DNA from: a virus
Virus record (IMG/VR): IMGVR_UViG_3300009509_000006
Coordinates: 34,059-98,058 of that record
Strand: one strand, 5' to 3'
Length of the DNA stretch: 64,000 bases
Part shown: piece after piece, positions 1 through 35,001 of the stretch
How the letters are laid out: every line of letters starts with the position of its first letter
Numbering within the stretch: position 1 is the stretch's first letter
The notes under the pieces: generated by a model
Seen by the model: the letters and a program-made list of their open reading frames with translations, nothing else
What the model was told of the DNA's origin: nothing
The model's database searches: none
Position numbers and translations under genes: made by a program

Positions 1-1514
1 GTCCACCCGGACTGGTTCCCGTCGTCGAAGTAGAGCTCCCTCGCGCCATTGAGGTGCAAGTCGTTCGCGCCAGTGGTCTCGATGTGCCCGGCAGTCACTC
101 CGATGTCGATCTCCACCCCACCGGTGTCGACCTTGATCTCGTTGGCGAAGTCCGTCGTCACGGCATCGATGTCGAACACGTCGACGTCGTTCTCTACGGC
201 GACCGTGCTCGTACCGCCTGCGGAGCCCTCCGTGATGACAAACAGGTCCGCCTCGGCGTTATCCCGGATCTTCCAGAAGATGCCCGCGGACTCGAGGTCC
301 AGCGTCGCGTTCGTGGTCAGGTCGACCGGCGTCGTGCCCTGCTGATCGTAGGCAGTCTGCCTGCTGACCGTCGTGGCTCCGGCAAGGTCCACGAAGATCC
401 CGGTCAGGAACGCCTGCTCTGGAATGTTGTCGAGGCTCGTCCGCTGCACGTAGGCATAGTTGATCGACTTCCCGCCAATGTCGGCGCCGTCTGCCGGGAT
501 CAGGTCGTCTCCCGTGCTGTTGAGCTTCACGAACGAGATCTGCACCTGGTGGTCCGAGTCGTTGAACGTGTCGCCGTCGACGACACCGCTCTCGGCCTGC
601 AAGAGGCCCCAGATGTCTCGGCCGTCCGAGCCCTCGATCGTCTCGCGAGTGCTGCCGTCCACGATCAGAACGAGGTTCTTGGGGCGGATAGCGTTCGCCC
701 CCGAGACCTCGGTGAGCGCGAAGCTTCCGACATCGCCGGAGAGCGTTGCGACAACAGCTCCCTCTGCATTCCCGGCATTGACCGCAGCCGTTTCGGTTGG
801 CACCTCCGAGCTCGCCGCGCTCAAGACAACAACGTCGCCGGCACCACCGGACAACGTCGCACCGCCCCACGACAATCGCACACCGGACGTGCTCTCCGTC
901 GTTGCGATCGTGTTCCCGTTCGTACCCTCGACCTTCGCCGTCGCATTCATGGTGTCGCCGGCCCCAGCAGAAGCCGACACCGTAGGATGCAATGTGGTAC
1001 TCAAGGCATAGACAGTTCCCGCACCGGGGCCGAGGTTGATAGCCGCAATCAGGTTGTCGATCGTATTCGAAGCCGAAACACCGTCGATCAGCACGTACCC
1101 ATCGACATCCGTCAACGAGGTGACGAAAGTGTACGTCTTCGTGTCGATCGTGACCGTGTCTCCGTTGTTCGGTTGTGAAAGGAACGTCAGCACCCCGGTT
1201 GCCGCGACTCCCGCTGGAACCGAAACATCGGTCAGAAGCTGCGTGCGGAACAGGAAGCGCTTCTCCTCGATGTCGTCGAGGTCGAAGTTCAGGTCGTAGA
1301 GACCCCTCTTCTTGGTGTTGACGGTAGGGACGTCATCGTACCAGTTGAGAGACCCGTCCGCGCGCAAGACCCTGTTGATCTGCGACCGGAGCGCATCCGC
1401 GTCGTCATTGCCCGAAGCCGCGTTGGTCTCCAGGGTAGAGCCCGCAGCCAGATTGTCCAAGTAGACCCTGGCGTTCCGGATCTGGGTGTCCTGGTTCAAG
1501 AGCGATCTGGACAT
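1..1514 (-). CDS. Tail fibre/spike-like virion structural protein, C-terminus cut by window edge
   Basis: Begins at ATG 1514 (MSRSLLNQDTQ) and reads open to the window edge, giving 504 visible residues. The N-terminal third has the pattern GDTVTIDTKTYTFV, then ASNTIDNLIAAIN, then GNTIATTESTS, a beta-sandwich unit common in phage tail fibre and baseplate-attached proteins. A related unit sits inside this phage's sheath. The last visible residues, rich in D, G and N and ending NGARELYFDDGNQSGW, look like a beta-structured fibre region. It follows the gp6/J-like wedge gene, where fibre or baseplate-periphery genes usually lie. The role is inferred from position and composition; no receptor-binding domain is visible in this part. 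Confidence 0.6.
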   Translation of the reverse strand, partial: MSRSLLNQDTQIRNARVYLDNLAAGSTLETNAASGNDDADALRSQINRVLRADGSLNWYDDVPTVNTKKRGLYDLNFDLDDIEEKRFLFRTQLLTDVSVPAGVAATGVLTFLSQPNNGDTVTIDTKTYTFVTSLTDVDGYVLIDGVSASNTIDNLIAAINLGPGAGTVYALSTTLHPTVSASAGAGDTMNATAKVEGTNGNTIATTESTSGVRLSWGGATLSGGAGDVVVLSAASSEVPTETAAVNAGNAEGAVVATLSGDVGSFALTEVSGANAIRPKNLVLIVDGSTRETIEGSDGRDIWGLLQAESGVVDGDTFNDSDHQVQISFVKLNSTGDDLIPADGADIGGKSINYAYVQRTSLDNIPEQAFLTGIFVDLAGATTVSRQTAYDQQGTTPVDLTTNATLDLESAGIFWKIRDNAEADLFVITEGSAGGTSTVAVENDVDVFDIDAVTTDFANEIKVDTGGVEIDIGVTAGHIETTGANDLHLNGARELYFDDGNQSGW

Positions 1515-1602
1515 GCAAGCCTCCGCATCGAGGGTCGTCTCCTTCGCCAATAGTAGCAGGCGACACCCTTCTTCGTCATGCCCACATTCCGAGCAGTCGA
1601 GT

Positions 1603-3774
1603 TCAGGAGGCTTCTACGGTAACTGCCGTGACAGATCCGCGGGTCACGACCTCCCCGGATTCAACGATCAGGTTGCCCTTCGCGTCGAGCTTGTCCGTCA
1701 GCGTGCTCGATCCCTCCAGGTACCCTTCGATCGTTATGTTCACGTATCTAACCCCCGCCGTGCCCTTGAACGCATTGTAGAACTCGTCCAGGTACAGGCT
1801 CGCAGCGAAGGCTCGGTCACGGAGCACACCTTCGGCAAGAGCCGTCAGAGTCGCCTTCAAGACGTCGAGTGAGTAGCCAGTCAAGATCCCGGCTCGGATC
1901 GAGACAACAGCGGGGACGAGGTAGTCTTCTCCCGAGACGACTCGAACGGACTGCGTCGTTTCCTTTCGAGCCTCGAGGTACGCTTGCAGAGAGCGCACCA
2001 GGGCGGTCGTTGGCGTCGTGTAGAAGCCCCCAGCATCCCTGGTCAGGATCGGGACGGTGATGAGATTCGATTTGCAGTCTGCCGACAAGAGCCGGTCAAT
2101 GTGGTCAAAGATCTCTTCTGTGTAGCCCTCGACGAGGCTCGAGACGTCCTGGACCGCCGTGTCTATGTCCTCGAGGTCTTCGTAGATGCCCGTTGGCGGA
2201 GGCCCGGGCTCGCCCGCTTCGGTCTCGATGAGAGTCCGCTCGGTCTCGAGTGTGTCCAGGAGCGAGTCGGCCTGAGCTACAGTCAGACCAATCGCGAAGG
2301 CCCGGTCCCGCGCCTGGCCCATCACGGTGATCTCGTTGTCGACACCCGTCCAGATCACAGCCGAAGCCGTCAGGATGTCCCCGGCCGAACCGTCGATCGA
2401 ATCGAAGTAGGCCTTGAGCGCATTCTTGTCCGCGGTGGTCAACTGTGACGTCGTCGGGTCGTCAGCGATGGCATCGACGGCTGCTTTTCCGTCCGTCACC
2501 TTACCCTGAATGTGGACCGCTCCGGCATCGACCTCGTTCGCCTTGTTCTTGACGACGCGCCCGTCTGCGATAGCGCCCTGGAGCCCCGTGTCGATCCCCG
2601 TCGTCTCCGTCGCAATGTCCGTCAAGCGGTCGGTGATCACGCCGAGCGCCGTCCGAATCAAGTCCAGAGCGGCCTCGGAGTCCGCAACGGCTTGTGTGAC
2701 TGTAGGCTCGGGCTCCTGCACCGTGTTGTTGATGTCCTGGAGCAGGCTGCGCAGCGTCAAGTCCTGCTGAGCGGACCGAGCGGACAGAGCTCGAGCGACA
2801 GCGACTCGCCCAGCCACGGGATCCGTGTAGGCGCCCGCGAGGCTCTCGTAGTCCTCTTGTGTGACCGCAACCTTCCGGCTCTTCCATACCTTCGGGGCAT
2901 TCGCCTTTGCTTGCTCCAGTGTTTCTGGGTCGTCTCCTCCCTTCGAGCCCTCCGGGTTGGTGACCGTCATAGGGATCGTTTGGAAGCCAATCACCAGAGG
3001 CGTGATTACCGCCGTGATTGTCCCGCTCGAAACCTGCCCGGCCTTGCCCCGCGAGGCCACGTAAACAGCAACGATCGTCGCATTCGTCGCCGGGATGTTT
3101 CCGGCCAGGGCGTTGCCAAACGCGAGAGTCGGGGGAGTGTCGATGTAGGCGATCTCGAACTGGTCCGAGGCCTCGAAGACCAGCACTTCGTTCTCTACCC
3201 AGGCAGCGCCATCGACGGAGACAGCGACGCCCTGGACGATGTACTTGTCCTCTGGAACCCGCCGCAGCTGAAAGACCTGGTTTGCACCACCATCGGAAAC
3301 GAAGGTCTCTGTGACGGTCTCGCCCTCGTAGGCAGGGACTACCTTGACAGTTTCGCCGGGCGAGAAGATCACCTCTTCGGCAGCTTCGAAGATCAAGCCG
3401 TCCGGGCCGAGGAACTGGAATCCCGGGTGGATAGGGACGTCGAAGGCATATGTCGAGTTCAACGTCACCTGCAGGTCCACCGAGCTCGCAATCGCGGGGC
3501 TGATCTTGTAACCCAGCTGGCGCGCCAGGAGCGTGACGGCTCTCGGTGTCCGAGCGGTCCCGATGAACATATCGGTCACGCGCCGGTCGAGATAGAAGCT
3601 CAGCGTGTCAAGCGCGAAAGCTGTGTGGTCGAACAGCAGCGTTCCCAGGCTGCCAACCGTGAAGTCGTTGAAGATCGCAGCGAATCGCACCTGCGTGCGC
3701 GCGCGGAGCTCGTCGAGATGCGAGTCGAAGTCGAAGCCGACATACGACACCCGGTTCAAGTCGGTTCTGGCCAT
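1603..3774 (-). CDS. Baseplate wedge protein, gp6 / baseplate J-like family
   Basis: About 723 residues. The N-terminus (LNRVSYVGFDFDSHLDEL, then LLFDHTAFALDTLSFYLDRR) is typical of gp6/J-like wedge proteins that build the baseplate ring around the hub. The middle (about residues 330-560) is an alanine-rich, probably coiled-coil insertion, so the protein is longer than P2 gpJ. The C-terminal region (VVSIRAGILTGYSLDVLKATLTAL and the following GVRYVNITI) matches the family's conserved beta domain. I chose ATG 3774 because GGGTGA lies about 5 nt upstream; GTG 3783, which overlaps the gp25 stop codon, is the alternative. It is translationally linked to the gp25-like gene, as in many myoviruses. 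Confidence 0.85.
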   Translation of the reverse strand: MARTDLNRVSYVGFDFDSHLDELRARTQVRFAAIFNDFTVGSLGTLLFDHTAFALDTLSFYLDRRVTDMFIGTARTPRAVTLLARQLGYKISPAIASSVDLQVTLNSTYAFDVPIHPGFQFLGPDGLIFEAAEEVIFSPGETVKVVPAYEGETVTETFVSDGGANQVFQLRRVPEDKYIVQGVAVSVDGAAWVENEVLVFEASDQFEIAYIDTPPTLAFGNALAGNIPATNATIVAVYVASRGKAGQVSSGTITAVITPLVIGFQTIPMTVTNPEGSKGGDDPETLEQAKANAPKVWKSRKVAVTQEDYESLAGAYTDPVAGRVAVARALSARSAQQDLTLRSLLQDINNTVQEPEPTVTQAVADSEAALDLIRTALGVITDRLTDIATETTGIDTGLQGAIADGRVVKNKANEVDAGAVHIQGKVTDGKAAVDAIADDPTTSQLTTADKNALKAYFDSIDGSAGDILTASAVIWTGVDNEITVMGQARDRAFAIGLTVAQADSLLDTLETERTLIETEAGEPGPPPTGIYEDLEDIDTAVQDVSSLVEGYTEEIFDHIDRLLSADCKSNLITVPILTRDAGGFYTTPTTALVRSLQAYLEARKETTQSVRVVSGEDYLVPAVVSIRAGILTGYSLDVLKATLTALAEGVLRDRAFAASLYLDEFYNAFKGTAGVRYVNITIEGYLEGSSTLTDKLDAKGNLIVESGEVVTRGSVTAVTVEAS

Positions 3775-4160: not shown

Positions 4161-4531
4161 TACAAGAGGTCCAGGGGGCATAGGGGGAGTGCCGGGAGCT
4201 GCGGGAATGGGATCGTGAACGAGAACGAGAAATTCAGCGAGATGAAAGGCAGTGTGATCGTCGGCAACTGGGGCAACGGGATGTTCAGGTCAAACGAGGG
4301 AAGGGCCGGGAGCTGCGGGAATGGGATCGTGAACGAGAACGAGAGGTTCAACGATATGAACGGCAACGTGATCGTGGGCAGCTTTGGGAGCGGGATGTTC
4401 AGGTCGAAGGAAGGCAGGGCCGGCAGCTGAGGGAATGGGATCTCAAGGCTCAACGAGATGGATAGTGAGGGCAGAGCCGGCAGCTTGATCGTCGGCGGGA
4501 ACGGCGGGAATTTGCATAGCGTATCAGCCAT
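4160..4531 (-). CDS. Proline-periodic repeat protein of the baseplate region
   Basis: 123 residues from ATG 4531, which overlaps the preceding stop as TGATG. Almost the whole protein consists of a near-identical 38-residue unit (residues 31-68 and 69-106) plus a third partial copy (107-123). Each unit runs IPFPQLPALPSFDL, NIPLPxLP, TITLPFISLN, FSFSFT. Prolines fall every 3-6 residues and alternate with hydrophobic beta-forming residues; charged residues are almost absent. The N-terminal 30 residues are a degenerate version of the same pattern. No catalytic residues are visible. The position between the spike operon and gp25 suggests a baseplate or spike-tip part. I know no firm family match; function unknown. 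Confidence 0.7.
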   Translation of the reverse strand: MADTLCKFPPFPPTIKLPALPSLSISLSLEIPFPQLPALPSFDLNIPLPKLPTITLPFISLNLSFSFTIPFPQLPALPSFDLNIPLPQLPTITLPFISLNFSFSFTIPFPQLPALPLCPLDLL

Positions 4532-5022
4532 CAGATCACAGTCACAGGAGTGTTCGAAGGGAGCAGAACCATGGGGATCCCTACCGTAGCAGCATGCAAG
4601 CACGCGGCAACCCCAGCAGCTGCCGTCTCAGCTGTGTTCCCGATGTTCGCAAAGATCCCGGTGAGGCACGGCACGAGCCCAGCGACTCCAGGAACAGCCA
4701 CTGGCGCTCCAGAGTCCGCGCCCGCAGTGAACACGACAGGGGGCAAGGTCCAGAAAGTGGTCAGAGCGGTCACGAAGGCTTGCGCTGCCGTCGCCGGGCT
4801 GCCGGTCTTGGGCTCGGTCCAAGTTGCGATGAGCGTGCCACGGAAGAGCTCGGGCTCCAATCCTGTGAACAGCGGTGTCGCTGGCGTCGGCACGGTAGTA
4901 GCTTGCGCAGCGTAGTCCGCATACGCCTTCGCCCACTTGTCCGCCGTATCGAACAGGACCTTCGGGGGGTTCTGGAAAATCGATCTCAGAGCGTTCTCAA
5001 GCGTAGCTACTACCAGAGGCAT
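4531..5022 (-). CDS. Hypothetical baseplate-region structural protein
   Basis: 163 residues, starting MPLVVATLENALRSIF and ending two bases from the spike gene's stop. The first half is amphipathic-helical (KVLFDTADKWAKAYADYAAQA). The second half is rich in A, T, V, G and P and contains FRGTLIATWTEP and a long small-residue stretch ending MVLLPSNTPVTVI. There is no signal peptide or recognisable motif. It lies between the spike and the Pro-repeat gene, with the latter starting on its stop codon (TGATG), so the two products are probably made together. I infer a minor baseplate component. Confidence 0.6.
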   Translation of the reverse strand: MPLVVATLENALRSIFQNPPKVLFDTADKWAKAYADYAAQATTVPTPATPLFTGLEPELFRGTLIATWTEPKTGSPATAAQAFVTALTTFWTLPPVVFTAGADSGAPVAVPGVAGLVPCLTGIFANIGNTAETAAAGVAACLHAATVGIPMVLLPSNTPVTVI

Positions 5023-19876: not shown

Positions 19877-20278
19877 TTACGCGCCCGCGTTCACCTGGGA
19901 TCGAGCAATCGACAGGGCACGCTCGCCGAGACCGCAAGTGGCCGCCCGAGCGATCCAGATCGCCAGGCCCTTCTGGTCGTTCGGGATTTCGAAGAGCAAA
20001 GCCTCCTCGATCATCTGGTCAATGGCCGTGCCGACGCACTGCATGGCTCCGTCCACAGTGAGCCCGTACTCGACGCCGATCGCATCGACGATGTCCTCGA
20101 TGTAGCGATCGAAGTCGTGCGTGACGCCAGTGATGTTCGTGGCCTTGCCGGTACCAGGCAGACTGCCGTGTCGATCGGTTGCGGCTTCGCCGAGCGCCTC
20201 CTTGGAGGAGTCGAACTCCATGTCGCCAATGATCTTGTCACGGATGCCTTCCAGAACGGCGTTGAATTCCGAATTCAT
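19877..20278 (-). CDS. Hypothetical neck/tail-completion protein
   Basis: 133 residues, mostly helical: MNSEFNAVLEGIRDKIIGDM, HDFDRYIEDIVDAIGVEYG, VGTAIDQMIEEALLFEI, GLAIWIARAATCGLGERAL. Acidic N-terminal half, no known motif. It lies four bases before the gp15-like gene in the tail-completion cluster, which suggests a small structural or assembly protein. Function unknown. Confidence 0.6.
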   Translation of the reverse strand: MNSEFNAVLEGIRDKIIGDMEFDSSKEALGEAATDRHGSLPGTGKATNITGVTHDFDRYIEDIVDAIGVEYGLTVDGAMQCVGTAIDQMIEEALLFEIPNDQKGLAIWIARAATCGLGERALSIARSQVNAGA

Positions 20279-24054: not shown

Positions 24055-24579
24055 CTACTTCCCAGGAAACTCCTTCTTGAGCTTCGATTCCACAGCCTTG
24101 TTCCACGACTTGAGCTTCGGGCCCTCCCACCAGCGCGACGCCGCGGCGCCGACAGCCGCAGCGCCTCCCCAGAAGGGGTCGTACCGCCCGTACAGCTGCT
24201 TCGTGTCCGAGATCTTTGCGCTGGCGTGCCCAACGAGGTGTCGAGCGTTGACGAGCTCCGGTGGAAGGATCATGAGGAGGCCTTCCTTCCTGAGCATCTC
24301 AACAGTGAAGTCCGTACCCTTGAGCATTCCTCGGGCGTCGTCCATCGCGCTTTTGCCAATGTCGAATCCCTGCTCGCGCGTCAGGTACTTGCGCCCGTAG
24401 GCAACGCCCTTCTTCCACTGGGCCTCGGCAAACTTCGATCCGGACAAGGATTTGCCGAATTTGTCCTTGTAGCCCATGAAGGGCTTCTTCCACTCTTCGT
24501 GTGGGACAGGAGGATCGGGAAATTGCGCCTCAAGCTTGCCCTCGAGCAGGTCCCGGCCCTCTTGGATGAAACGTCGCAC
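24055..24579 (-). CDS. Putative internal (capsid-targeted) head protein C
   Basis: 174 residues from GTG 24579, one base after the stop of the preceding gene. It starts MRRFIQEGRDLLEGKLEAQF; residues 1-14 match the leaders of the two genes just upstream. The body is basic and helical (KKPFMGYKDKFGKSLSGSKF, WKKGVAYGRKYLTREQG), with a Gly/Ala-rich hydrophobic stretch (WGGAAAVGAAASRWWEG) near the C-terminus that could insert into a membrane. A cut after LLE at residue 13 is plausible. Enzymatic function unknown. Confidence 0.65.
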   Translation of the reverse strand: MRRFIQEGRDLLEGKLEAQFPDPPVPHEEWKKPFMGYKDKFGKSLSGSKFAEAQWKKGVAYGRKYLTREQGFDIGKSAMDDARGMLKGTDFTVEMLRKEGLLMILPPELVNARHLVGHASAKISDTKQLYGRYDPFWGGAAAVGAAASRWWEGPKLKSWNKAVESKLKKEFPGK

Positions 24580-24580
24580 A

Positions 24581-24844
24581 TCAGCCCCCTACTTCCTTGA
24601 GCTTCGCGGCCACTTCGGGGTCCTTGCCCCAGCGCTTCCTGACAGCCGCCTTCACGGCAGGGTAGTCACTGGAGTCACCACGCTTCGCCTGGATGTAGGC
24701 GAGAGCGCGGATCGCGTGCTCCTGGTCATGGATCGGCCACCCCTTGCGCTCGGGGAAGACGAATGACGACTTTTTCATGCGCTCGCGCTTCCCTGGCGTG
24801 ATCTCGTCGAGCAGCGCACGTCCTTCTTCGATCAGGTCTCGCAT
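24581..24844 (-). CDS. Putative internal head protein B, DUF6582-like
   Basis: 87 residues from ATG 24844, which overlaps the metalloprotease stop as TGATG. The leader MRDLIEEGRALLDE matches its neighbours. Residues about 28-75 (FVFPERKGWPIHDQEHAIRA, LAYIQAKRG ... VKAAVRKRWG) fit a small domain seen in many phage and prophage proteins (DUF6582-like: F-x-FP-x-x-R-x-x-PI-x-D-x-x-HA). Its biochemical role is not known to me. Coupling to the metalloprotease gene suggests the two act together. Confidence 0.65.
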   Translation of the reverse strand: MRDLIEEGRALLDEITPGKRERMKKSSFVFPERKGWPIHDQEHAIRALAYIQAKRGDSSDYPAVKAAVRKRWGKDPEVAAKLKEVGG

Positions 24845-25791
24845 CACACAACTCCCATGTCCTGGAGCACAGTGACCACACCCTTCTTGATGCGGTTCTG
24901 GCTCTTTGGCGTGAGGTGTTTCTTGATCTCGCGCCATGTGTTGGATTGCCCGAGCAGAAACGTCACCGCCTTGCTCTGCGGCCACGCTACGAGTTTCGCT
25001 CTGTGCGCGCCAACCAGGTCCCGAACCTGCGCGGAAATCTCCTGCATGTAGGCCTTCACCTCTTCGGGCGAGTTGTAGTAGCGAGCCTGGCGCTCCTTCG
25101 CCTTGGCCTTCGCCTGAGCTCGCTGCTCTTTCGGACTGTCCGGCGGATGCAATCCCACCTTCGTGAGGGTCATCTTCAGCCGCTCAGTTGAGTCGCCGAT
25201 CCCGAGCTCTTTTCGCTTCCGGGCGATCAGTCGGTGCGAGACCTCGCCATAGCCAGCTGCCTTCAAAATCTGCGAGATCTGCCTATCCGAGAAGGGATGA
25301 ACAGGGTTCTCCTGCTGGAGCAGCGCTACGATGTGACGCTCCAGGCTCTTCTTTCGCAGCACGTCCTTGGCGTGGGTGATCTCGTGCATGAGGGCGTACT
25401 TCATGGCGCCCTGAATGCTCGACATCTCGGTCCCACGCAAGAGCGGCACGAGCTCGCCGGCACCGAGATTTCCGTTCAGCATCATGTTGATGATTCGCTC
25501 TTTCGGCGCGTAGACGGCACCCAGAAAGAGCCCGCGCACGCCGGGCCTCTTGACGCTGATCACCGAGACCGGAATCTCGCGCTTCTTGCCCTTGACATCG
25601 GACACAGTGATCTTCTCGGTGGCCCACAGCTTGTCGCCGATCGGCTTGGTCGGTTGCACCCTCGCCATGCTCTGGAGCGCGGGCACGAACTGGCCCATGA
25701 GCCGCTTGACGAGCATCGTAACGACTTGGTCAGGCAGCTTGATCGGGCGGGCTTCGAGGAGCTTGTGCCCTTCCGTGATCAGGTCTCGCAT
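24844..25791 (-). CDS. Predicted HExxH zinc metalloprotease with capsid-targeting-like leader
   Basis: 315 residues. HEITHAKD at 136-143 is a zincin motif (two His ligands and catalytic Glu). E244 or E251 in YYNSPEEVKAYMQEI (238-252) is a candidate third ligand, a layout seen in other small phage-encoded peptidases. The N-terminus MRDLITEGHKLLEA (1-14) is shared with the next two genes and resembles T4 capsid-targeting sequences (for example the start of Alt, MELITELFDE). Residues 220-237 are Lys/Ala/Arg-rich. There is no signal peptide or membrane helix, so a cytoplasmic substrate is likely. It is the first gene after the capsid terminator. Inference: packaged in the head and ejected with DNA; the substrate is unknown. 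Confidence 0.65.
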   Translation of the reverse strand: MRDLITEGHKLLEARPIKLPDQVVTMLVKRLMGQFVPALQSMARVQPTKPIGDKLWATEKITVSDVKGKKREIPVSVISVKRPGVRGLFLGAVYAPKERIINMMLNGNLGAGELVPLLRGTEMSSIQGAMKYALMHEITHAKDVLRKKSLERHIVALLQQENPVHPFSDRQISQILKAAGYGEVSHRLIARKRKELGIGDSTERLKMTLTKVGLHPPDSPKEQRAQAKAKAKERQARYYNSPEEVKAYMQEISAQVRDLVGAHRAKLVAWPQSKAVTFLLGQSNTWREIKKHLTPKSQNRIKKGVVTVLQDMGVV

Positions 25792-25800
25792 GGCTACCTC

Positions 25801-25838
25801 AAACAGAAAGGCCGCCCACCCAGATCGGGGGAGCGGCC
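25801..25838 (-). terminator. Rho-independent terminator after the capsid gene
   Basis: On the coding strand GGCCGC (25838-25833) pairs with GCGGCC (25815-25810), with inner CCC/GGG pairing, followed by TTTCTGTTT. It separates the abundant capsid transcript from the internal-protein genes. Confidence 0.8.
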
Positions 25839-25880
25839 CAGTACGACCGTGTCAATGGAACGACCCGAGACCGAGCCGCA

Positions 25881-27377
25881 TCAGATGTTGAGCACGCGGA
25901 CCTGCCCGTAGTATTCGGCCCGAAGCAGCTTCTTCGCGTAGCGGGTACGCAGACCCTTACGGAAGCTCATGTCATTCGGATCCAAAAAGGTGGGCGTCAC
26001 CTGCAACGGGACGTAGGGGGCCCAGACGAACCCGGCGTCCAAGTACGAGCCGCCCTTGAGGCCCAGCATCGCGAAGTCGGACGCGAAGAACGGGTCGACG
26101 TAGACGACCCACTTCCGCATCAGGGTGCCGGCCTTGTAGACGCCGAACTGGCCGTGCTGCGTCAGGGGGCGCGGCATGTCGGCCGGTCCGAGCGGGCTCT
26201 CGCCGCCGCTCACCCAGATCGGGCGGTAGTCGCCGTGAGTGGTCAGCTGCTCCATCAGAGCGCTGATCTCGGGCGAGGTCACAATCCAGTTCGCGGGCGC
26301 ACGCAGGGTCCGCTTGTGGATCGAGTTCGACACCTGGGACAGCACGGTGACGAGCGACCGGAGGTGATCGATCTCGGCGATGCCGCTGGGCGGGATCCGA
26401 TCGAAGGTTCCACCGCTCCCGGTCGAGGCCAGGAACAGGTCCTGGATGATCTCCCGGTCGATCTCGAGCGCCATCTCGCTCGCCGCTGCAGCGACCAGCT
26501 CCGTCTCGGCTTCGAGCCCCTGCAGGTTGCGCAGGTCCTCAGCCGCTTCCGAGCTCCAGAGAGCCTTGAGACGACGCGGGACCGCCTCGATGACGGCTTT
26601 CTTCACGTCGAGCTGCACTTCGGGCAGCTTGGTGTTGAGCTCGCCGTCGTAGCTGTAGTACATCTTGATCTGGTGGCCAGCCACGGGGTCGACGGCGAAA
26701 CGCACACCCGCCAGGGCACCATTCGAGTAGTTCAGGGTGCCGGCGGTGAGATCGGTGCTGGTGTCCGCGGCACCACTCGCCAGGAACTTGCCCTCCTGAA
26801 TCACGGACCCGGCCGCATCGAGGTCGCGGATGATCACGTCATAACCGCGATCGGTACTCGGCTTGTGCACCGGAGTGAGAGCCAGATTCACACTGATCGG
26901 CACACCACTGGGACCGTAGTCCGAGCCGGTACCGGTGGCGAGGATTTCACCATTCACGAACTCCGAGCTGTAGTAGCGGTCGAAGTCGCGCGGGAACACG
27001 TCGCCGCGAGTCGTTTCCCCCTTGGTCGTACCGTAGACATAGTCCAGGTAGAACACGGCGCCCTGCGGCGCGGTCATGGGCTGCACCGAGACGATCTCGT
27101 TCACGATCAAGTTCGGGAACACACGGCTGAGCACCGGGAACACGAATTTCGTGAAGTAGCCCACATTGATGGCCCTCGTCTCTTCGTTCATGCTACGAAG
27201 GTGACGGGCCTGGTTCTCGTAGAGCATCGCCATGCAGCCCCGAATGTAGCGCTCGTGGCGACAGCGATCCGGCATCCCTTCCAGAAGGGGTGCCCACTTC
27301 TCCACGTATGCGCCGACGAGACGGCGGTCGGCGATGGTGCCACTGCTATCTTCGATCACAACTCGACGAGCTTCCAC
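25881..27377 (-). CDS. Major capsid protein, gp23-like
   Basis: 498 residues from GTG 27377 with AGGAGG eight bases upstream. It has the gp23-type N-arm (INVGYFTKFVFPVLSRVFPN, then IVNEIVSVQPMTAPQGAVFY) and C-terminal block (GVYKAGTLMRKWVVYVDPFF, LGLKGGSYLDAGFVWAPYVP, RYAKKLLRAEYYGQVRV), the T4 version of the HK97 fold. APLLEG at 30-34 is a possible prohead protease cut that would remove a 33-residue propeptide. A terminator lies directly downstream and the protease-scaffold gene directly upstream, as in T4. Confidence 0.92.
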   Translation of the reverse strand: MEARRVVIEDSSGTIADRRLVGAYVEKWAPLLEGMPDRCRHERYIRGCMAMLYENQARHLRSMNEETRAINVGYFTKFVFPVLSRVFPNLIVNEIVSVQPMTAPQGAVFYLDYVYGTTKGETTRGDVFPRDFDRYYSSEFVNGEILATGTGSDYGPSGVPISVNLALTPVHKPSTDRGYDVIIRDLDAAGSVIQEGKFLASGAADTSTDLTAGTLNYSNGALAGVRFAVDPVAGHQIKMYYSYDGELNTKLPEVQLDVKKAVIEAVPRRLKALWSSEAAEDLRNLQGLEAETELVAAAASEMALEIDREIIQDLFLASTGSGGTFDRIPPSGIAEIDHLRSLVTVLSQVSNSIHKRTLRAPANWIVTSPEISALMEQLTTHGDYRPIWVSGGESPLGPADMPRPLTQHGQFGVYKAGTLMRKWVVYVDPFFASDFAMLGLKGGSYLDAGFVWAPYVPLQVTPTFLDPNDMSFRKGLRTRYAKKLLRAEYYGQVRVLNI

Positions 27378-27408: not shown

Positions 27409-28959
27409 TCAATCCGCTCCAGGCGGCATCAACTCCTTCAGGGCTCCGAGGCCAACACCGAGACCATTGAAATCGGTGTCCTCACTGAGTGCTCTCCTGA
27501 CAGGCGTATCCGGCCAGGGCTCCTCCTCGTCGAACGGTGTGTGTCCGACTCCGCCCCCCAATTGACGGCGAATCCGCGAAACCGTGGATTCGATGGCCTC
27601 CAGCGAACGCTTCGGAGGCCGGAACTGCTCGATGATCGAGTCGACGTCTTCGCGAGACGACAGGGCCGATCGGTCGAACACTTCCCTGATCTGCTTGGCC
27701 CTCGGGTGCTTGCCGATACGTCTCTCCCCGTACAGCTGAAGGCCCGTGATGTGCAGTGCTTCGGCAGACTTGTGTAGCGCGGTCTCCAGGTCGCGCACAC
27801 GGTCGTGCAGCTGCTCGAACTGAGCTTCGGCGCGCTCGGTGAGCTCGCGGTGTTGCTCCTGCGCCTGTTCCTCCTCCAGACGCAGCTCTTCGAGATGCTC
27901 TTGCACAGAGGCGAGCTTCGACTGGAAGTCCGCCTCGGATTCGAACCGCGAGAGGTCTCCGACCAGTTGCCGCACACGCTCGGCATCCGGGTTCTGGTGC
28001 AACTCTCGCTCCATGTACCAGGCGAACCCGGCCACCTGGGCCAGAGTCACCAGCTTCTCGTTCTCTTCCTCGAGTTCGGCCACGCGGGCACGCACCTTGT
28101 CTCTCGACTCTCGCAGCCGAGCGATCTCTTCGTCTCTGCGCTCCAGGGCTTCGCGGGCTTCTCCGGATCGCATGAAAGGCGCGAGAGCCTCTCGGATCAC
28201 GTGGAAGGCCTCGACCTTCTGGAGCGTCTCGTCGCTGCGCAGCTCGGCCCGGACGTCCGCCTCGACGACCGTGCGCAGCTCGGACATTCGCGTCAGGATG
28301 TCCGTGGCGATCTCGGCATTCATGTCGGGATCGCCCGAAGCGTTCTCTTCGGGAAGGAACTCGTCCCCTTCCGGGAACTCGATACCTTCGAACAGGAGCA
28401 TGCTGTCAAGGTCGACACTCTCGCCGACCATTGTCGGGTAGGCGGTCTGATCCGCGGGGTCGGCAACGAAGTCGAATGCGATGAGCTTGTAGTCCTCCTG
28501 GACCACGTTCTCGCCGAACTCGTTTGGCTTCGTCGTCCCGTAGCCTCGGGACGAGATTCCGACCTTGCCTCCCTCACGCAGGATGGCTGCGAGATCCTTG
28601 CCCGCCGCCGTACCGAGGATCTGCGCCTCGCCGTACACGACATCGTCGCGGACCTCGAGCTTCGTGATCAGGTGGCTTGCCCTGGACAGCTTCGTTTTGC
28701 CGTCTTCTGGATGATCGAGCTCGCCGTAGCACTTTCGCTCAGCAAGGCGCGGCAACAGGCGCTTGATCTCCCGCTCCCACAGAGCCTTTGGGTAGACGCG
28801 CTTATTTTCGGTCGGGATACCGGCGCGGGCGAACTCACCGCGCATGAAAAGACGCTTCGTTGCCACGTCTTCGACGAGCTCGAGCTCGGTCCCCTCGATC
28901 CACTCGATGAGATGATTGAGGTCGCCGACCTTCGTGTCTTCTGTGAGCTGCTTCGTCAT
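27409..28959 (-). CDS. Prohead core protease fused to scaffolding protein (gp21 + gp22-like)
   Basis: 516 residues from ATG 28959 (TGATG overlap with the 45-residue gene); ATG 28974 is an alternative. Residues 25-180 are a gp21/S80-type serine protease: H83 in GELDHPEDG, S136/S137 in GKVGISSRGYG, and the following FVADPADQTAYP. Residues about 240-410 are a long Glu/Arg coiled coil (LERRDEEIARLRESRDKV), as in gp22 scaffolds, and the rest is helical. LLFEGIEF at 188-195 could be a self-cleavage site between the two parts. In T4 these are separate genes; the fusion would deliver protease and core together. Confidence 0.85.
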   Translation of the reverse strand: MTKQLTEDTKVGDLNHLIEWIEGTELELVEDVATKRLFMRGEFARAGIPTENKRVYPKALWEREIKRLLPRLAERKCYGELDHPEDGKTKLSRASHLITKLEVRDDVVYGEAQILGTAAGKDLAAILREGGKVGISSRGYGTTKPNEFGENVVQEDYKLIAFDFVADPADQTAYPTMVGESVDLDSMLLFEGIEFPEGDEFLPEENASGDPDMNAEIATDILTRMSELRTVVEADVRAELRSDETLQKVEAFHVIREALAPFMRSGEAREALERRDEEIARLRESRDKVRARVAELEEENEKLVTLAQVAGFAWYMERELHQNPDAERVRQLVGDLSRFESEADFQSKLASVQEHLEELRLEEEQAQEQHRELTERAEAQFEQLHDRVRDLETALHKSAEALHITGLQLYGERRIGKHPRAKQIREVFDRSALSSREDVDSIIEQFRPPKRSLEAIESTVSRIRRQLGGGVGHTPFDEEEPWPDTPVRRALSEDTDFNGLGVGLGALKELMPPGAD

Positions 28960-29096
28960 CAGTACCGCCGCCATCGAAACTGACCCCGTAGCGGGGTCCT
29001 ATCCAGGAGACCGGGCTTCTTGCGAACAACCCGGGACTTGCGCTGTGTGGCCTTCTGGTAGTTGAAAGCGTCTCTCCTCCCACTCGAGGTGGACAC
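28959..29096 (-). CDS. Small basic prohead-core-region protein
   Basis: 45 residues from GTG 29096: MSTSSGRRDAFNYQ, then KATQRKSRVVRKKPG, ending LRGQFRWRRY. Thirteen of the 45 residues are Arg or Lys. Its TGA overlaps the protease ATG (TGATG), the same coupling used by many genes here, which supports it as real. T4 has the small core proteins gp67 and gp68 between portal and protease; this gene is in the equivalent place, but no sequence relation is claimed. GGGGA lies about eight bases before the GTG. Confidence 0.5.
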   Translation of the reverse strand: MSTSSGRRDAFNYQKATQRKSRVVRKKPGLLDRTPLRGQFRWRRY

Positions 29097-29176: not shown

Positions 29177-29923
29177 TCAGTCTTCCCCCTGGTCGTCGCC
29201 CTCCACGATGCTCTCGTACACCTCGCAGGCGTCGAGAAGAACCGAGAACTGCGATTCGAAAGCCTCTTGAAGAGCCTCGAGGTCCTCGATGTCACCCTCT
29301 TCGATGGCATCGACAACCGTGCCGGCGAGGTTCGCCAGGCCCACGCAGCTGTCCGCGAGCTCGGCGAGCTCTTCGTCCTCGTCTTCGTTCGCGAAGAAGC
29401 GGAACGCCTCGCTCAGAAGCGCCGCGATCTCCTGGATGTACCCGAAACCCTCGTGCGCTTCGGTCAGGACATCGTCACGGTCGATCTCGACCGCCTCGGG
29501 CTCGGTGTGATCGACGAGACCCTTGATCTCGCTGATCAGGTCCGTGATGCGCCCCAGGGCGACATCGTCTTCCTTGCGAGTGCCCTTTCGGAGAGCCGCA
29601 GCTGCGACCTTCTCCTTGTGGGTCTGCCACTGCGGGCGTTCGTACTTCTTCTCGCGCTTTCGAGCGGCAGCCTTTCCTTTGCCACCTCGGCGATAGCGCC
29701 GGCCACGAAGAAGCTCCTTCATGGGAGTCCTTGCCAATGTCTTTTTCGTCCCGATGCGACGCTTGATTCGGACGCGCTCTTCGAGCTCGCCGTCCTTGTC
29801 GTCGTCGTCGCCCTCGAGCTCGGGGTCCGTCGTGACCTCGTCCTCCTCGGGGAGCACGTCTTCGCTCAGGAGCCCGATCGCCTTGAGGTCCTCTTGCAGG
29901 GACCGCACTACGACGTTGTACAT
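29177..29923 (-). CDS. Charged prohead-core-like protein
   Basis: 248 residues with strong charge segregation: an acidic N-terminus (EDVLPEEDEVTTDPELEGDD), a basic centre at about 50-110 (RRYRRGGKGKAAARKREKKY), and an acidic helical C-terminus (FANEDEDEELAELADSCVGL). Good ribosome site (AGGAGG) before ATG 29923. It lies between portal and protease, where T4 encodes core proteins. Charge pattern and position suggest a prohead core component or a factor binding DNA through its centre. No domain match; function inferred. Confidence 0.6.
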   Translation of the reverse strand: MYNVVVRSLQEDLKAIGLLSEDVLPEEDEVTTDPELEGDDDDKDGELEERVRIKRRIGTKKTLARTPMKELLRGRRYRRGGKGKAAARKREKKYERPQWQTHKEKVAAAALRKGTRKEDDVALGRITDLISEIKGLVDHTEPEAVEIDRDDVLTEAHEGFGYIQEIAALLSEAFRFFANEDEDEELAELADSCVGLANLAGTVVDAIEEGDIEDLEALQEAFESQFSVLLDACEVYESIVEGDDQGED

Positions 29924-29934
29924 TCCGATTCCTC

Positions 29935-30819
29935 CTACTCGCTCAGTTTGTCTGCCACTCCCTGCAGGAAGCCCCCCGCGACCTGATACGCCGGGAATTC
30001 CAAGGCCAGTGCGTCATACAGTCTGCTCAACTGTTCGGGGCAAGAAAGCCCAAGTGTCGCATCTTCGACGAGACGCCCGAGGCCTTCGAGGTCGTCCGCA
30101 AGGTCTCTCCCGAACGAGACAAGAGCATCGCCGAGGCCATCTTCGAGCCTCGAAGTGCCTTCTGTGATGCCCTCTACAGAAGCATTCACCGAAGAGGCCA
30201 AATCGTCAAGACCTTCGGCCAGTTTCCTGACCTCTTGCCTGACGAGCAACAGGGTCTCGGCATCCGTGCCCGCGTTCTGGTGCTCCAGGAGTTCTGTGAG
30301 CCCAGGCTCGAAAGCCTCGTCGACCTCACCCGCAACCGCCTCGAATTCCGAGGACTTGGCCTCGTAGGCCTGGCGCCACGGACGAGGCCTCTTGATCGCT
30401 TCGACCATTCTGTCGACACGCTGTTCGTCAGTGAGTGGCGGGCAGTGCGGTGCGATCGCCTCGAGGAGTTCCATGGCGGCGCTCTCGTTGCCTTCGGCGA
30501 ACAAACGAACGGCACGCATGGCATCTCGGATCCGGAAATACTCGGCGTCCTCACCCCTGTAGATCGGGATCTCAAGGGGCTTGGAGTCGACAAGGTCCGA
30601 GCCGTCAAAGCTCAGATCGAGAAAGCGGCCGTCCTCGGAGGCCACGATCGCGCGGTCTTCGAAGGTACCCACGGTCCAGAAACGGACCCCGTCCTCGAAA
30701 ATGCGATCCTGGTTTCGTTCGATGGCGTGCTGAACGTCACCAATCTTGGCTTCGAACGAGCCAGAAAGGATGGGCCGAAGAGCTTCGGCAGGGACGAACG
30801 TTTCAGCCTGTTTCGACAC
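29935..30819 (-). CDS. Hypothetical head-cluster protein with coiled coil
   Basis: 294 residues from a GTG with GAGGTA upstream. The N-terminal half is a beta/alpha domain (FWTVGTFEDRAIVASEDGRF, LEIPIYRGEDAEYFRIRDAM). Residues about 190-260 are a helical, heptad-like region (EVRKLAEGLDDLASSVNASV, EGTSRLEDGLGDALVSFG). The first part recalls small phage head proteins that sit next to portal genes, but I cannot name a family. It starts four bases after the portal stop. Possible prohead assembly or core protein. Confidence 0.6.
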   Translation of the reverse strand: MSKQAETFVPAEALRPILSGSFEAKIGDVQHAIERNQDRIFEDGVRFWTVGTFEDRAIVASEDGRFLDLSFDGSDLVDSKPLEIPIYRGEDAEYFRIRDAMRAVRLFAEGNESAAMELLEAIAPHCPPLTDEQRVDRMVEAIKRPRPWRQAYEAKSSEFEAVAGEVDEAFEPGLTELLEHQNAGTDAETLLLVRQEVRKLAEGLDDLASSVNASVEGITEGTSRLEDGLGDALVSFGRDLADDLEGLGRLVEDATLGLSCPEQLSRLYDALALEFPAYQVAGGFLQGVADKLSE

Positions 30820-30823
30820 CGCT

Positions 30824-32656
30824 CTACCTCGCGTGATGCGGCCTCCGGTTTAGCTCTCGAGTGTGCATTCGAATCTCCCGGACCTGAGCAGCAATGCGAC
30901 TCTGCTCCCTGACCAGGCGCCCCCAAGGCGTGTTCGAGTACATATCCCCACGAAAGCCCATGCCAGATGGCACCCGCTCAGAGATACCATTGCCCCCCGC
31001 ACCGATCAAGTACGGTGCCCTGGGGGTGCCAGTGAACAGCCGAGGACGCCGGCCGCCGAGAAGCAGGTTTCCGTATGGGGCCCGGGACTCGAATCCGCCG
31101 CCACCTTCCTGCCCACCTTGTGCAGCCATCATAGCCTTCTGCATGAGGGCTTGCGCCTGGCCTTCGATAGCGCCCTGACGCACAGCCTCCTCGTCGCGCT
31201 GATCCATGATAGTGCGAATCTCGTCGTCCGTCAGGCCCTCACCGTGCTTCAGCGCGTATTGGAGCGATACGTGCTCGCGCATACGGCTCATCCAATCGGC
31301 CCGAGCGTTCTTCACCTCGAGCTGCGCCAGCTCGAAGATCGAGCTCGGCACCGTGAACTTCACCTCGAACTCGACGTTGTCCGGTGGGATCCCAAGAGCC
31401 GCCAGGTGCACACGGAAGACCTTCTCGAGTCCCTCGCGCAGGCACTGCTGCAGTCTCATGACCGTGCGCGCGAAACGGACGTCCTCGCTCGACAGGATCG
31501 CCCGGTTCACGCCCTCTTCCTGTGAGAAGTAGGCCTTCGGCACCTGCATCGCCGCGAACAGCTTGCGAAGGAAATATTCGATGTCTTCCATGTGCTGCCA
31601 GTTCGGACCGCCCAGCAGCTCGATTCGTGTAGCCTCGGTACCATTGATCACAGGCACGAAGAAGTCTTCGTCTTGCGCCAGTGCGTCGAAGCGCAGGTCG
31701 CGCTGATTCGTGATCGGGTTGACGAACTTCTTCTTTTTGTACTGCTGCCGGATCTTGTGCAGCATCTTGAGGGCTTCGTGCGGCGGCAGGTTGCCCGTGT
31801 CGACGTAGAAAGCGAAGCGCTCGGGAGCGCGCTGCAGCCTGTAGACCAACGCAGCGTCTTCCAGAAGGATCAGCCGCTTCCAGATCCAGCGAGCCGGCTC
31901 GAGAATGCTCCAGCCGTAGACAGAGCGGCGGTGCTTCGCGCGCATTCGAAAGTGCGCGACCTGCCAGTTCTCGAACGGGATCACTTCGTTGTAGCCGACG
32001 CTTCTCGGCGGCGTCGCCGAGAGCTCGTTCGGCTGCCCAGGGCCTTTGTACTGGAATTGGAAGCGCTTCGAGAGCAGGTCCTGGAACTCTTTCGGCGAGA
32101 ATCCGATGCGCCGCTTGAAGTCCTGGACGAAGCCGTAGAGCTCGCCACGGGGTCCCTCGATGCGCCGCACAGAGTGCGCAGGCAAGTGATTCAGCCCGAC
32201 GACGCCCTCCTCGGCAACCAGGATCTCTTCGTAGTCGTTGCCTGTCTTCGACGTCGACCGGGCGATCTCCCACAGGTCCCTATCTTCCAAGCGCAGGGTC
32301 CGGTGGAACAGATCGTTTCCGAGTTGGGCAATATCGCGGTCCGGGCTCTCCACCCAGACACGGCGCCCACCTGGTGTGTCTGGCTGCGTCGCGTCGTCGG
32401 CGTAGATGTTGAGCGCGGCGCTCACCTCCGGGTAGTCGTCCATCGTTTCGTAGTCGATGAACCGCGACATGAGGTCTTGCTCCAGCTTGAGGTAGTCCGC
32501 CACGACATCGTAGCCGTAGCTCTGGAGCATATCGTAGGCCGAGCCTGGAAGCGTAGCGGCTGTCGCTCCTTGAGCCAGGCGCAGCTGCACCTGCTCTTTG
32601 TCCCTGCCGAACCAGGAGCGGATACCACCGAACACGCGGTTCATGAAGCCAGGCAT
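30824..32656 (-). CDS. Portal protein, gp20-like
   Basis: 610 residues from ATG 32656, coupled to the previous gene as TGATG. Conserved gp20 features include SRFIDYETMDDYPEVSAALN and IYADDATQPD near residues 60-95, VARSTSKTGNDYEEILVAEE-like text about 135-155, PFENWQVAHFRMRAKHRRSV and YGWSILEPARWIWKRLILLE (about 225-270), and NWQHMEDIEYFLRKLFAAMQ with VPKAYFSQEEGVNRAILSSE (about 355-395). The C-terminus (about 490-610) is Gly/Arg-rich. It forms the twelve-subunit ring through which DNA enters and leaves. Confidence 0.92.
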   Translation of the reverse strand: MPGFMNRVFGGIRSWFGRDKEQVQLRLAQGATAATLPGSAYDMLQSYGYDVVADYLKLEQDLMSRFIDYETMDDYPEVSAALNIYADDATQPDTPGGRRVWVESPDRDIAQLGNDLFHRTLRLEDRDLWEIARSTSKTGNDYEEILVAEEGVVGLNHLPAHSVRRIEGPRGELYGFVQDFKRRIGFSPKEFQDLLSKRFQFQYKGPGQPNELSATPPRSVGYNEVIPFENWQVAHFRMRAKHRRSVYGWSILEPARWIWKRLILLEDAALVYRLQRAPERFAFYVDTGNLPPHEALKMLHKIRQQYKKKKFVNPITNQRDLRFDALAQDEDFFVPVINGTEATRIELLGGPNWQHMEDIEYFLRKLFAAMQVPKAYFSQEEGVNRAILSSEDVRFARTVMRLQQCLREGLEKVFRVHLAALGIPPDNVEFEVKFTVPSSIFELAQLEVKNARADWMSRMREHVSLQYALKHGEGLTDDEIRTIMDQRDEEAVRQGAIEGQAQALMQKAMMAAQGGQEGGGGFESRAPYGNLLLGGRRPRLFTGTPRAPYLIGAGGNGISERVPSGMGFRGDMYSNTPWGRLVREQSRIAAQVREIRMHTRELNRRPHHAR

Positions 32657-32970
32657 CAACCCCTCGCCGCCAACTGTGTGAGGAACGTCTCCTGAAAGAG
32701 ACGCGGGTCCTTTAGGTAGGCTCTCAGGCGCTTGGCCAGCGCTTCGGACAGTCCCTCGACGCCGACATAGTCTGCCGCACGGAGGCCTTGCGCTTCAAGA
32801 CCGTCCGCCAATTCCTGCGCCGCAAGGATGCCGAGGTTCTCGACTATGGGCTCCAGGGGGATGGCCTCCGCGATCTCTTTGGCCTTTTCCCGAGCGAGGC
32901 TCGACACAGAGAGCAGAGTCGACGCGAGGTCTCCCTCGAATATACGCCTCGCGGCTTCCAGTGCATTCAT
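32656..32970 (-). CDS. Small helical protein between terminase and portal
   Basis: 104 residues, nearly all helical: MNALEAARRIFEGDLASTLL, SLAREKAKEIAEAIPLEPIV, AAQELADGLEAQGLRAADYV, LRAYLKDPRLFQETFLTQLA. The N-terminus has RRIFEG at 8-13, similar in form to the LLEG/LFEG motifs of the capsid and protease, so it may carry a processing site or a targeting leader. It starts three bases after the large terminase gene and its stop overlaps the portal start. No family is known to me; possible head core or packaging accessory. Confidence 0.6.
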   Translation of the reverse strand: MNALEAARRIFEGDLASTLLSVSSLAREKAKEIAEAIPLEPIVENLGILAAQELADGLEAQGLRAADYVGVEGLSEALAKRLRAYLKDPRLFQETFLTQLAARG

Positions 32971-32973
32971 GAA

Positions 32974-35001
32974 TCACCCCACGAGGAAAGGCATGGACCC
33001 CCACTCTCTCGCTGTGTCCACCGACAACCCCATCGAGTTCAGCGCATCCCGGTGCCCAGCAGCCACTGCATGTTGTTGCTCAACCATCCAGGCCTGGCTG
33101 TCCGGGTCATCGTAGGTGCTCAGGCCCATCAGGAACGGGGTCGGCGACACGTTCCGAACGGTCTTGAGCGAGTACAGTGCCCCGGCCATCGCGTCGGAAA
33201 CATCCTTTGCACCATTGCGTGGCTTGAGCACCTTGCGCTTCTCCCAGTCGGCCTCAAGGGACTGCAACTGGTTCAACACAGGGTTGTAGGCGTAACACGA
33301 CACGCGGTCCTCGTACAAAGCCTGCTTGAGAGTCTGGTACGGATCCCACGTTCTGTCCATCGAAACTTGATCCGTCGTGAACCCCTTCTTCGACAGCGTC
33401 TGCAAGCTGTCGATGGACTGCCACTGATCCATCGTGACGTGCACGATCGGGAATCCGTGAGCCTTCAGGTCGTAGACGAGTTGGCGGTACAGCGCGAAGT
33501 CGAGGTCCCCTCCGGGAGGTGGGACGATTTCGAGGATCAGGTCGATCACATACTGCGGTGCGAGCTCCTCGTAGACCCGGAGGCTCGAGTCCATTCGCCG
33601 CACCGGCACCTGCCCACCAATGTGGGCCATGCAGAGACCGGCCGAGCAGTTGTTCAGAGCGGGGTCGATGTGCACGTGGCGCTGCGCCGACGGATTCAAG
33701 AGTGGGATCAGCTTCTGCTCGGTCTCCTTGAATCCCGTGCGAACCGCGATCGCCCGCACAAGCTTCTCCCACAGGAAGTCGCCTCCAAGCGACGGGTCGA
33801 AGACCTCCGAGGTGAAAGGGTGCTCCCGAGTCGCATCCACCATGTCGTGGATCTTGTCTCGGCGTTGAATGAACGGCGAGACTGCGGTGGTTGCAATCCC
33901 GGCCAGGTCACGAATCGAGCCCTCGAGGTCGGAGGTGAACTCCGATCGCAGGTCCTCGGGAACCTCGATGAGCACTGTGCGCTCTGGTTGGTTCTCCTTG
34001 ATCAGGACAGCTTCGTCCTCTCCCAGAATCCGGGAGCGCACCTGCTCGTTGCCGCACAGTACGTAGAAGCGCCGGGGACCATAGTCGTCTGGCTTGACAT
34101 CCCAGAGTGCGTAGTCACGGACAAAGATCGTCGAGTCGTACTTCGCCGCTTCGATTCTCTGCTGGATGAACGAATCGTGCGTCGCCTTCGAGCTCGGGAG
34201 GAAGAGCTTGCCAGCGCGTCCATATCGCGAGTGGATCCGGCGCTTGATCGAATCGTACAGGTCTTTCGCCATGTTGACCGCGCCGAAACGGTCGTTCGCC
34301 TTCTTCTTCCTGACGGGCAGGAAGTTGCCCTCGTCGATGAGGCCAGCGATCAGGTTCATGCCGAGTGCGCCACGCGGCGTTGTCGCCCTGGAGACCACCA
34401 GCACGTTGTTGGGGAACCGGATGTTCTTCTGCGTGATCTTGAAGGGGAAGTGCTCAGCGAAGTAGGGGCTCTGCGCGATCTTGCCCACAACGTTCTTGAG
34501 CGCGACCTCTTTGGCCAGCTCCTCGTTCGCGCTGAAACAAGCAATCGAGATGGGGGCCTCTTTCGAAAGACCGTAGGCCCGCTGCGGCTGATGCAAACAC
34601 GAGAGCTCGTAGAGCATCCGACAGATGCCGATCGAGCACGAGAACGTCTTGCCCGTCCCGATCGCTCCCGTGAAGATCACCTCGCTGTACTGCCCATCGA
34701 AGACCTCGATCAGGTCATCGAGCAGTTGTGGGAAGATCACGTTGCACGTCTCGCCCAGATAGTACGGGTCGAGGATGAACGTGCGCATGTCGACGGGCTC
34801 GCGGATGTACTGCGCCGTCGCGATCTGGTCGACAACCCTTCTGCCTTCGTGCTCCAGGTCTTCGCCGAGCGCCTCCGCATACATCTGGAGCACGAGCTCT
34901 TTCTCGCCAGGCGAGAGCTTGTGGAATTCAGCAGCTACCAACTCTTCGAGGTCGTCGACAGTCTGCTCGCTCCAAGATCGACCCTGCTCCTCGTGGATCA
35001 T
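32974..35001 (-). CDS. Terminase large subunit
   Basis: 675 residues. ATPase domain: Walker A in VIFTGAIGTGKTFSCSIGIC (about 108-127), Walker B/catalytic Glu in LIAGLIDEGNFLP (about 215-227), and SRATTPRGALGMN just before it. The nuclease domain starts near HVHIDPALNNCSAG (about 440-455) with later acidic residues in the DQWQSIDSLQ and KDVSDAMAGALYSL segments, the RNase H-like pattern that cuts concatemeric DNA. Length and layout fit T4 gp17-like motors. The start overlaps the small-subunit-like gene by four bases (ATGA). Confidence 0.9.
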   Translation of the reverse strand: MIHEEQGRSWSEQTVDDLEELVAAEFHKLSPGEKELVLQMYAEALGEDLEHEGRRVVDQIATAQYIREPVDMRTFILDPYYLGETCNVIFPQLLDDLIEVFDGQYSEVIFTGAIGTGKTFSCSIGICRMLYELSCLHQPQRAYGLSKEAPISIACFSANEELAKEVALKNVVGKIAQSPYFAEHFPFKITQKNIRFPNNVLVVSRATTPRGALGMNLIAGLIDEGNFLPVRKKKANDRFGAVNMAKDLYDSIKRRIHSRYGRAGKLFLPSSKATHDSFIQQRIEAAKYDSTIFVRDYALWDVKPDDYGPRRFYVLCGNEQVRSRILGEDEAVLIKENQPERTVLIEVPEDLRSEFTSDLEGSIRDLAGIATTAVSPFIQRRDKIHDMVDATREHPFTSEVFDPSLGGDFLWEKLVRAIAVRTGFKETEQKLIPLLNPSAQRHVHIDPALNNCSAGLCMAHIGGQVPVRRMDSSLRVYEELAPQYVIDLILEIVPPPGGDLDFALYRQLVYDLKAHGFPIVHVTMDQWQSIDSLQTLSKKGFTTDQVSMDRTWDPYQTLKQALYEDRVSCYAYNPVLNQLQSLEADWEKRKVLKPRNGAKDVSDAMAGALYSLKTVRNVSPTPFLMGLSTYDDPDSQAWMVEQQHAVAAGHRDALNSMGLSVDTAREWGSMPFLVG

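Follow-up and report, generated by a model that had tools for sequence, protein, structure and literature searches.

Capsid-targeting leaders as such are known from T-even phages. The proteins packaged in T-even heads are injected counter-defences, the internal proteins have little in common except their leader, and ip genes have been located by leader search (PMC9026906, PMC3012670, PMC12373910); in IPIII the first ten residues are sufficient for packaging, and T4 gp21 cleaves after L/I-x-E (PMC9026906). The head propeptides of phiKZ and SPN3US, for which a role in targeting ejection proteins has been proposed, are removed by a gp21-related protease (PMC5694885), and an N-terminal region sends the P1 counter-defence protein DarB into the head (PMC9024508). 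Polyvalent proteins (Iyer et al. 2017, PMC5512222) join many domains in one polypeptide, and the ART, zincin peptidase, RelA/SpoT and 2H domains found among them are known parts of proteins that accompany invading DNA into the cell (PMC5512222). Phage-injected proteins are hard to recognise from sequence because they evolve fast.

We analyzed a stretch of 64,000 nucleotides (the window) of an uncultured T4-type virus, corresponding to bases 34059-98058 of a viral record of 98,058 bp. The leaders MRDLITEGHKLLEA, MRDLIEEGRALLDE and MRRFIQEGRDLLEG open three consecutive minus-strand genes (genes 1-3; Table 1) that follow a gp23-type capsid gene, and their first 13-14 residues agree at M-R-x-x-I-x-E-G-x-x-L-L-(E/D). 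We consider it quite probable that this common leader is a capsid-targeting sequence that works like the CTS of the T4 internal proteins, in a divergent and lineage-specific form. A single short, removable-looking peptide carried by several unrelated genes, with a separate version in each related virus on its own host-attack proteins, is probably an address label for loading into the head and injection into the host. The likeness to the T4 CTS (IPI, IPII, IPIII, Alt) lies in a short N-terminal leader on unrelated, non-essential proteins, and extends to a gp21-type protease, a gp23 capsid protein, a gp20 portal and sites of the (L/I)-x-E↓A type (↓, cut). The present tags differ from it in measuring 13-30 residues, in often carrying two (L/I)-x-E motifs, in varying between related phages and in lacking a convincing alignment with the T4 CTS MKTYQEFIAE. 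The phiKZ and SPN3US propeptides mostly exceed 100 residues, whereas the present leaders stay well short of ~100; the DarB signal belongs to one large protein, whereas here a short peptide is common to many genes.

Table 1. Features of the window (positions counted from its first base; ↓, predicted cut).
Feature	Position	Strand	Description
Gene 1	25791..24844	-	315 aa, start MRDLITEGHKLLEARPI
Gene 2	24844..24581	-	87 aa, start MRDLIEEGRALLDEITP
Gene 3	24579..24055	-	174 aa, GTG start, MRRFIQEGRDLLEGKLE
Leader (tag), gene 1	25753..25791	-	MRDLITEGHKLLE; predicted cut after E13 (LLE↓ARPI)
Leader (tag), gene 2	24803..24844	-	MRDLIEEGRALLDE; predicted cut after E14 (LDE↓I) or E7 (IEE↓G)
Leader (tag), gene 3	24541..24579	-	MRRFIQEGRDLLE; predicted cut after E13 (LLE↓G) or E7 (IQE↓G)
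Body, gene 1	24844..25752	-	probable gluzincin-like metallopeptidase with RpoN-box-like HTH insert
Body, gene 2	24581..24802	-	DUF6582-like domain; phrog_16160 5e-08
Body, gene 3	24055..24540	-	no match in Pfam or PHROGs, no relatives in IMG/VR
Major capsid protein, gp23 family	25881..27377	-	Gp23 6e-64
gp21-type prohead protease (S77)	27409..28974	-	Peptidase_S77 5.7e-16; phrog_207 1.8e-45
Probable core/scaffold protein	29177..29923	-	assigned by gene order; related proteins in 6 of the records compared
Second protein between portal and protease	29935..30819	-	conserved in group
Portal protein, gp20 family	30824..32659	-	Portal_T4 1.1e-60
133-aa protein	19877..20278	-	counterparts in G002, G004, G005, G012 of like position, size and sequence

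The first-pass annotation had claimed a common N-terminal leader on three consecutive genes with unrelated bodies, which gene reading together with Pfam and PHROGs confirmed, and had placed them after the capsid gene; the upstream gene is indeed gp23 (6e-64). Stop and start codons of genes 1-3 overlap or are adjacent, and the ribosome-binding sites are plausible: the gene 2 ATG overlaps the gene 1 stop (TGATG) and has GGGAG upstream, a longer GTG ORF reaching 24985 being unnecessary, and the GTG start of gene 3 is preceded by AGGGGG. The gene 1 leader holds a second candidate cut site after ITE7↓G. The three bodies are mutually unrelated, that of gene 2 matching DUF6582 at 1.8e-4, below the Pfam cutoff. 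Searches by tblastn with genes 1 and 2 against named phages yielded no relatives, and the AlphaFold model of gene 3 alone was poor (pLDDT 40).

Upstream of gene 1, a same-strand series comprises the gp20 portal, two core-like proteins, the S77 protease and gp23, for comparison with the T4 order 20-67-68-21-22-23, and homologues of the protease and capsid protein are present in 15 related records. The presumed core protein probably occupies the place of T4 gp67/gp68 or gp22. The N-terminal arm of the window gp23 (VGAYVEKWAPLLEG) resembles that of T4 gp23 (ELLNKWKPLLEG), and the S77 protease carries a long scaffold-like C-terminal extension and an N-terminal QLTED that fits (L/I)-x-E. The 133-aa protein has an N-terminus (MNSEFNAVLEGIR) that resembles the tag type of two relatives (G002/G008, below) and an LGE↓A site at residues ~30-33; these features are suggestive, and it is possible that this protein is packaged or is the source of that tag type. 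In the interval that separates the capsid gene from gene 1, a stem-loop at 25790-25845 (minus strand; -23.3 kcal/mol, z -1.4) precedes a U-rich stretch and could conceivably be an attenuator.

For comparison, we selected 15 related records by way of the capsid gene, in one capsid-protein search, took each of them in full or nearly in full, and made simple codon-usage gene calls for this analysis. Gene starts were compared within each genome, and pairs with similar bodies were left out. In the 16 related genomes, 63 N-terminal pairs of body-unrelated genes scored at least 45, whereas internal segments of these genes gave 2 such pairs; at a score of at least 50, the numbers were 42 and 0. In the record that contains the window, the leader start was found on 5 of the 102 called genes, namely genes 1-3 and two genes outside the window (record 1706..1389, MRNMIQEGRLLLEGKDP; 4848..4423, MRDLIDEAQLLLAREQ), both located ~53-58 kb from the window cluster. 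The fifth leader gene (L004 4848) does not have the second LLE motif.

The search of related genomes with the motif, which had been proposed as a check, was run with an out-of-sample profile, built solely from the three leaders of the window and applied to the called genes of 14 related genomes. It gave 16 new matches of at least 14 bits, of which 12 were at gene starts, that is, began within six residues of the start codon, against an expected 3.65% (binomial p = 9e-15). Within the phages' own protease or capsid protein, no tag signature above 11 bits was seen. A start-anchored DNA form of the leader motif had no match in 2.9 million viral contigs (IMG/VR, own record excluded), so that the exact window tag is not spread. 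The unanchored pattern gave 39 matches; among the 14 inspected, 11 were members of a single prophage protein family, in which the motif is internal, the remaining 3 were a 25-residue open frame, and none was the gene start of a long frame. Thus, the motif is meaningful at gene starts only.

Leaders in the related phages are common to genes within one genome and differ from genome to genome, taking forms such as MSxLSEAVERGRELLxEA, MNKRINRLLEGIRRELGEA, MKIVEGLELDP...LSEA and IRxxAGLxEA. G001 and G003 carry MSKLSEAVERGRELLSE, MSRLSEAVDRGRELFDE, MSQLSEVIEKGRGLLGE, MSISETIERGRELLDE and MKRLIEEGRKILQE, and G008 and G009 carry MNRELNRLLEDIRRELGEA and similar starts. In G005, MKIxEGLELDPxEF opens eight genes, and around residue 28 most of them have LSE↓A, LTE↓A or MTE↓A as a gp21-like site; IRxxAGLxE(A/S) is found on four genes of G017, and LGE(A/S) or MGES on two genes of G018. 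By eye, the leader types align to an archetype, (L/I)(L/I)-x-E/D-x-R-x-x-L-x-E-A. Not every phage of the group has the arrangement: G006, G007, G013 and G015 showed no convincing multi-gene leader. In G017 (IMGVR_UViG_3300029258_001212, 21-38 kb, L132 and neighbours), ~20 genes lie upstream of the portal, several with copies of the phage's own tag at the start or internally, plus LxE(A/S) sites; some have a polyprotein-like layout, and the prohead protease would divide these. Possibly also a polyprotein is the product of L004 1721-3280 (minus strand), which has 519 aa, repeated modules and an internal tag-like SSDLLERARALIEA.

Gene 1 allowed leader and body to be followed separately. Its product carries an HEITH motif, and H136-E137, H140 and E244 are invariant across the family alignment. 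Between HExxH and the Glu ligand (residues ~140-204) sits an RpoN-box-like HTH (Pfam Sigma54_DBD, 2.6e-08), present in two of five family members only, gene 1 and its G003 homologue. Foldseek gave sigma-54 RpoN domains as top matches (prob 0.96-0.98, with weak E values of 0.4-0.5), only the RpoN-box part being matched. The gene 1 product is probably a metallopeptidase into which an RpoN-box-like DNA-binding element is inserted; for an injected protease, binding to sigma-54-type promoter DNA would be unusual.

The G003 homologue is 66-67% identical in its body and starts with MSISETIERGRELLDEA, which scores 21 against the gene 1 leader and 31-58 (mean 45) against the other G003 leaders; the gene 1 leader in turn scores 34-43 (mean 38) against other leaders of its own genome, all these local-leader figures being somewhat optimistic because the tag lists are partly similarity-selected. 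More distant family members begin with MLQHLIDKGRKLLEA (G003), MPSLKVLIEQGRALLEA (G001) and MRESINSILSRIRLELGEG (G008). In all five family members x-R-P-I directly follows the predicted cut, and in an untagged Actinomycetota MAG polyprotein the gene 1 domain starts at ARPI. The AlphaFold model gives a pLDDT below 50 for residues 1-16, of which 2-12 form a detached helix, and ~90 for the body from residue 21. The domain start and the detachment indicate that the leader of gene 1 is an addition to the body and ends where cleavage is predicted. Such separation of the leader from a folded body that starts at the site was found for gene 1 only.

Across the tagged genes, [LIVMF]-x-E-[AGS] occurs in the first 34 residues of 36 of 40, versus 331 of 2104 (16%) other genes, and the leaders form amphipathic helices, with double the amphipathicity of other N-termini (p = 4e-13), with the same optimism in both figures from the partly similarity-selected lists, which do not affect the profile, the N-terminal pair counts and the G002 codon results. 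Compared with T4 IPI-III, Alt and gp24, the leaders scored 6-24 and gave no convincing alignment; as a yardstick, the T4 leader of IPI scores 25 against that of IPII and 27 against that of IPIII, and pairs among the five leaders of the record score 21-50. We therefore describe them as CTS-like in working, rather than homologous. Amphipathic helices are generic protein-binding elements, and the leader could instead be a retained docking helix that serves no packaging purpose and binds a common partner, not the prohead core but, for example, the tail, host RNA polymerase or a phage hub protein. We regard this as unlikely, given the gp21-like sites in most leaders, the gene 1 body that begins just past such a site, at the residue where the untagged relative starts, the head and tail genes that surround the clusters of G002, G003 and the window, and a cargo that looks like injected effectors.

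A still less probable explanation is that the common start is a functionless relic of recent duplication, or a recombination handle, with the 5' end of a gene having been copied. Identical leaders on adjacent genes do resemble copied ends, and in G002 MNKRINRLLEGIRRELGEA opens three adjacent genes with 19 identical residues (three further starts are more divergent). However, each pair of these leaders differs by 3-4 synonymous and no nonsynonymous codon changes, and their flanks (50 nt upstream, 60 nt downstream) are at background identity; from its codons, the leader peptide can be shown to be under purifying selection. Leaders are also retained on genes tens of kb apart, and homologous bodies in different genomes bear different, locally matching leaders, both of which speak against a relic.

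The high hydrophobic moment of the leaders would suit a membrane-binding helix that takes proteins to the host inner membrane, but their mean net charge is near zero with many acidic residues, and the L/I-x-E↓A ends and the lineage-specific replacement would be left unexplained, which makes this reading very improbable. A DNA- or RNA-level signal for translation or transcription, in spite of the location of the similarity exactly at translation starts, is the least credible of all, as synonymous changes are tolerated while amino acids are retained and the similarity covers 13-19 codons and not the ribosome-binding region. A signal peptide was set aside, as by eye there is no hydrophobic core.

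In the capsid-targeting mechanism that we propose, the amphipathic leader helix of 13-19 residues would bind the core or scaffold of the assembling prohead and bring its protein inside. The phage's own gp21-type S77 protease would then cut after (L/I)-x-E within or at the end of the leader, and the body (for gene 1, from ARPI onward) would stay in the head, to be injected with the DNA and to act in the host before phage gene expression. Each phage lineage would have its own tag version and cargo set, and a cargo gene moving between lineages would have its tag swapped for the local one. Since leader replacement is lineage-specific, we infer that each tag is recognised by the cognate core. A wider proposal is more tentative: lineage-specific address codes may exist, in which the core accepts its own tag only, tag and core receptor co-diversify, cargo needs the local tag, and in G017 polyproteins internal tags let one gene deliver several cargo domains released by the prohead protease. 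Taken together, these points are possible rather than probable.

These results also bear on the use of the leader as a tag and as a search key, both put forward in the first-pass annotation. The targeting role is supported, at the level of sequence, by the sites, the domain boundary, the gp23, gp21 and gp20 genes, the recurrence of leaders and the injected-effector types that carry equivalent leaders in the relatives, but the exact motif is not group-wide. Confined to one phage whose relatives have their own leaders, it serves as a search key inside that genome only; outside it, only the archetype holds. Conserved bodies without the conserved leader had been named as evidence against a tag. 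The leader does differ, but conserved bodies bear the leader of the local genome, which supports a tag and does not refute it.

The cargo in other genomes includes a RelA_SpoT domain in tagged G001 and G003 genes (7.5e-16), ART-PolyVal in a tagged G005 gene (5.4e-10), a LigT/2H phosphoesterase in a tagged G012 gene (5.6e-9; leader LIAEGRALLCE) and HExxH proteins (zincins) in several. One RelA/SpoT-domain protein with N-terminal tag MKRLIEEGRKILQE (L073 16896-17753, minus strand) is a candidate injected alarmone synthetase. Zincins, RelA/SpoT, 2H and ART-PolyVal domains set this putative cargo apart from that of the T4 CTS, as do the internal tag copies of some G017 polyproteins. The same domains recall polyvalent proteins, which have many per polypeptide, whereas here a gene mostly encodes a single domain and has a tag of its own. 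Genes 1-3 each have at most one recognised enzymatic domain, as opposed to several effector domains. A polyprotein of more than 1000 aa (L166, RFZO01000102.1, 2-3223, plus strand) fuses a gene 1-type zincin and a G005-type ART in polyvalent style, together with a superoxide-dismutase-like domain (by eye); RTAS/RTAA motifs recur around its domain junctions and are perhaps sites of another protease.

In the literature searched, we found no description of the lineage-specific variant, its cargo range or the internal tag copies. By comparing gene starts within a genome, candidates for injection can be listed directly in uncultured T4-type phages; the present list holds ~40 genes from eight phages, almost none of them annotated. 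It also becomes testable whether capsid targeting is a general system of exchangeable addresses in co-evolution with the scaffold.

Three further observations concern the neighbourhood of the head genes in the relatives. An apparent LAGLIDADG-type homing endonuclease (by eye; L002 1319-2161, plus strand) lies just after the capsid gene and before the tagged genes. Among the tagged genes of G003, a 158-aa gene (33223-33699, plus strand) resembles part of the capsid protein (5.6e-22) as a stand-alone fragment. Finally, portal open frames measure 1032-1476 aa in G007, G008, G009, G011 and G013, versus about 600 in the others, and an intein-like end (VVHNS) in L019/L020 suggests inteins in the long portal frames.
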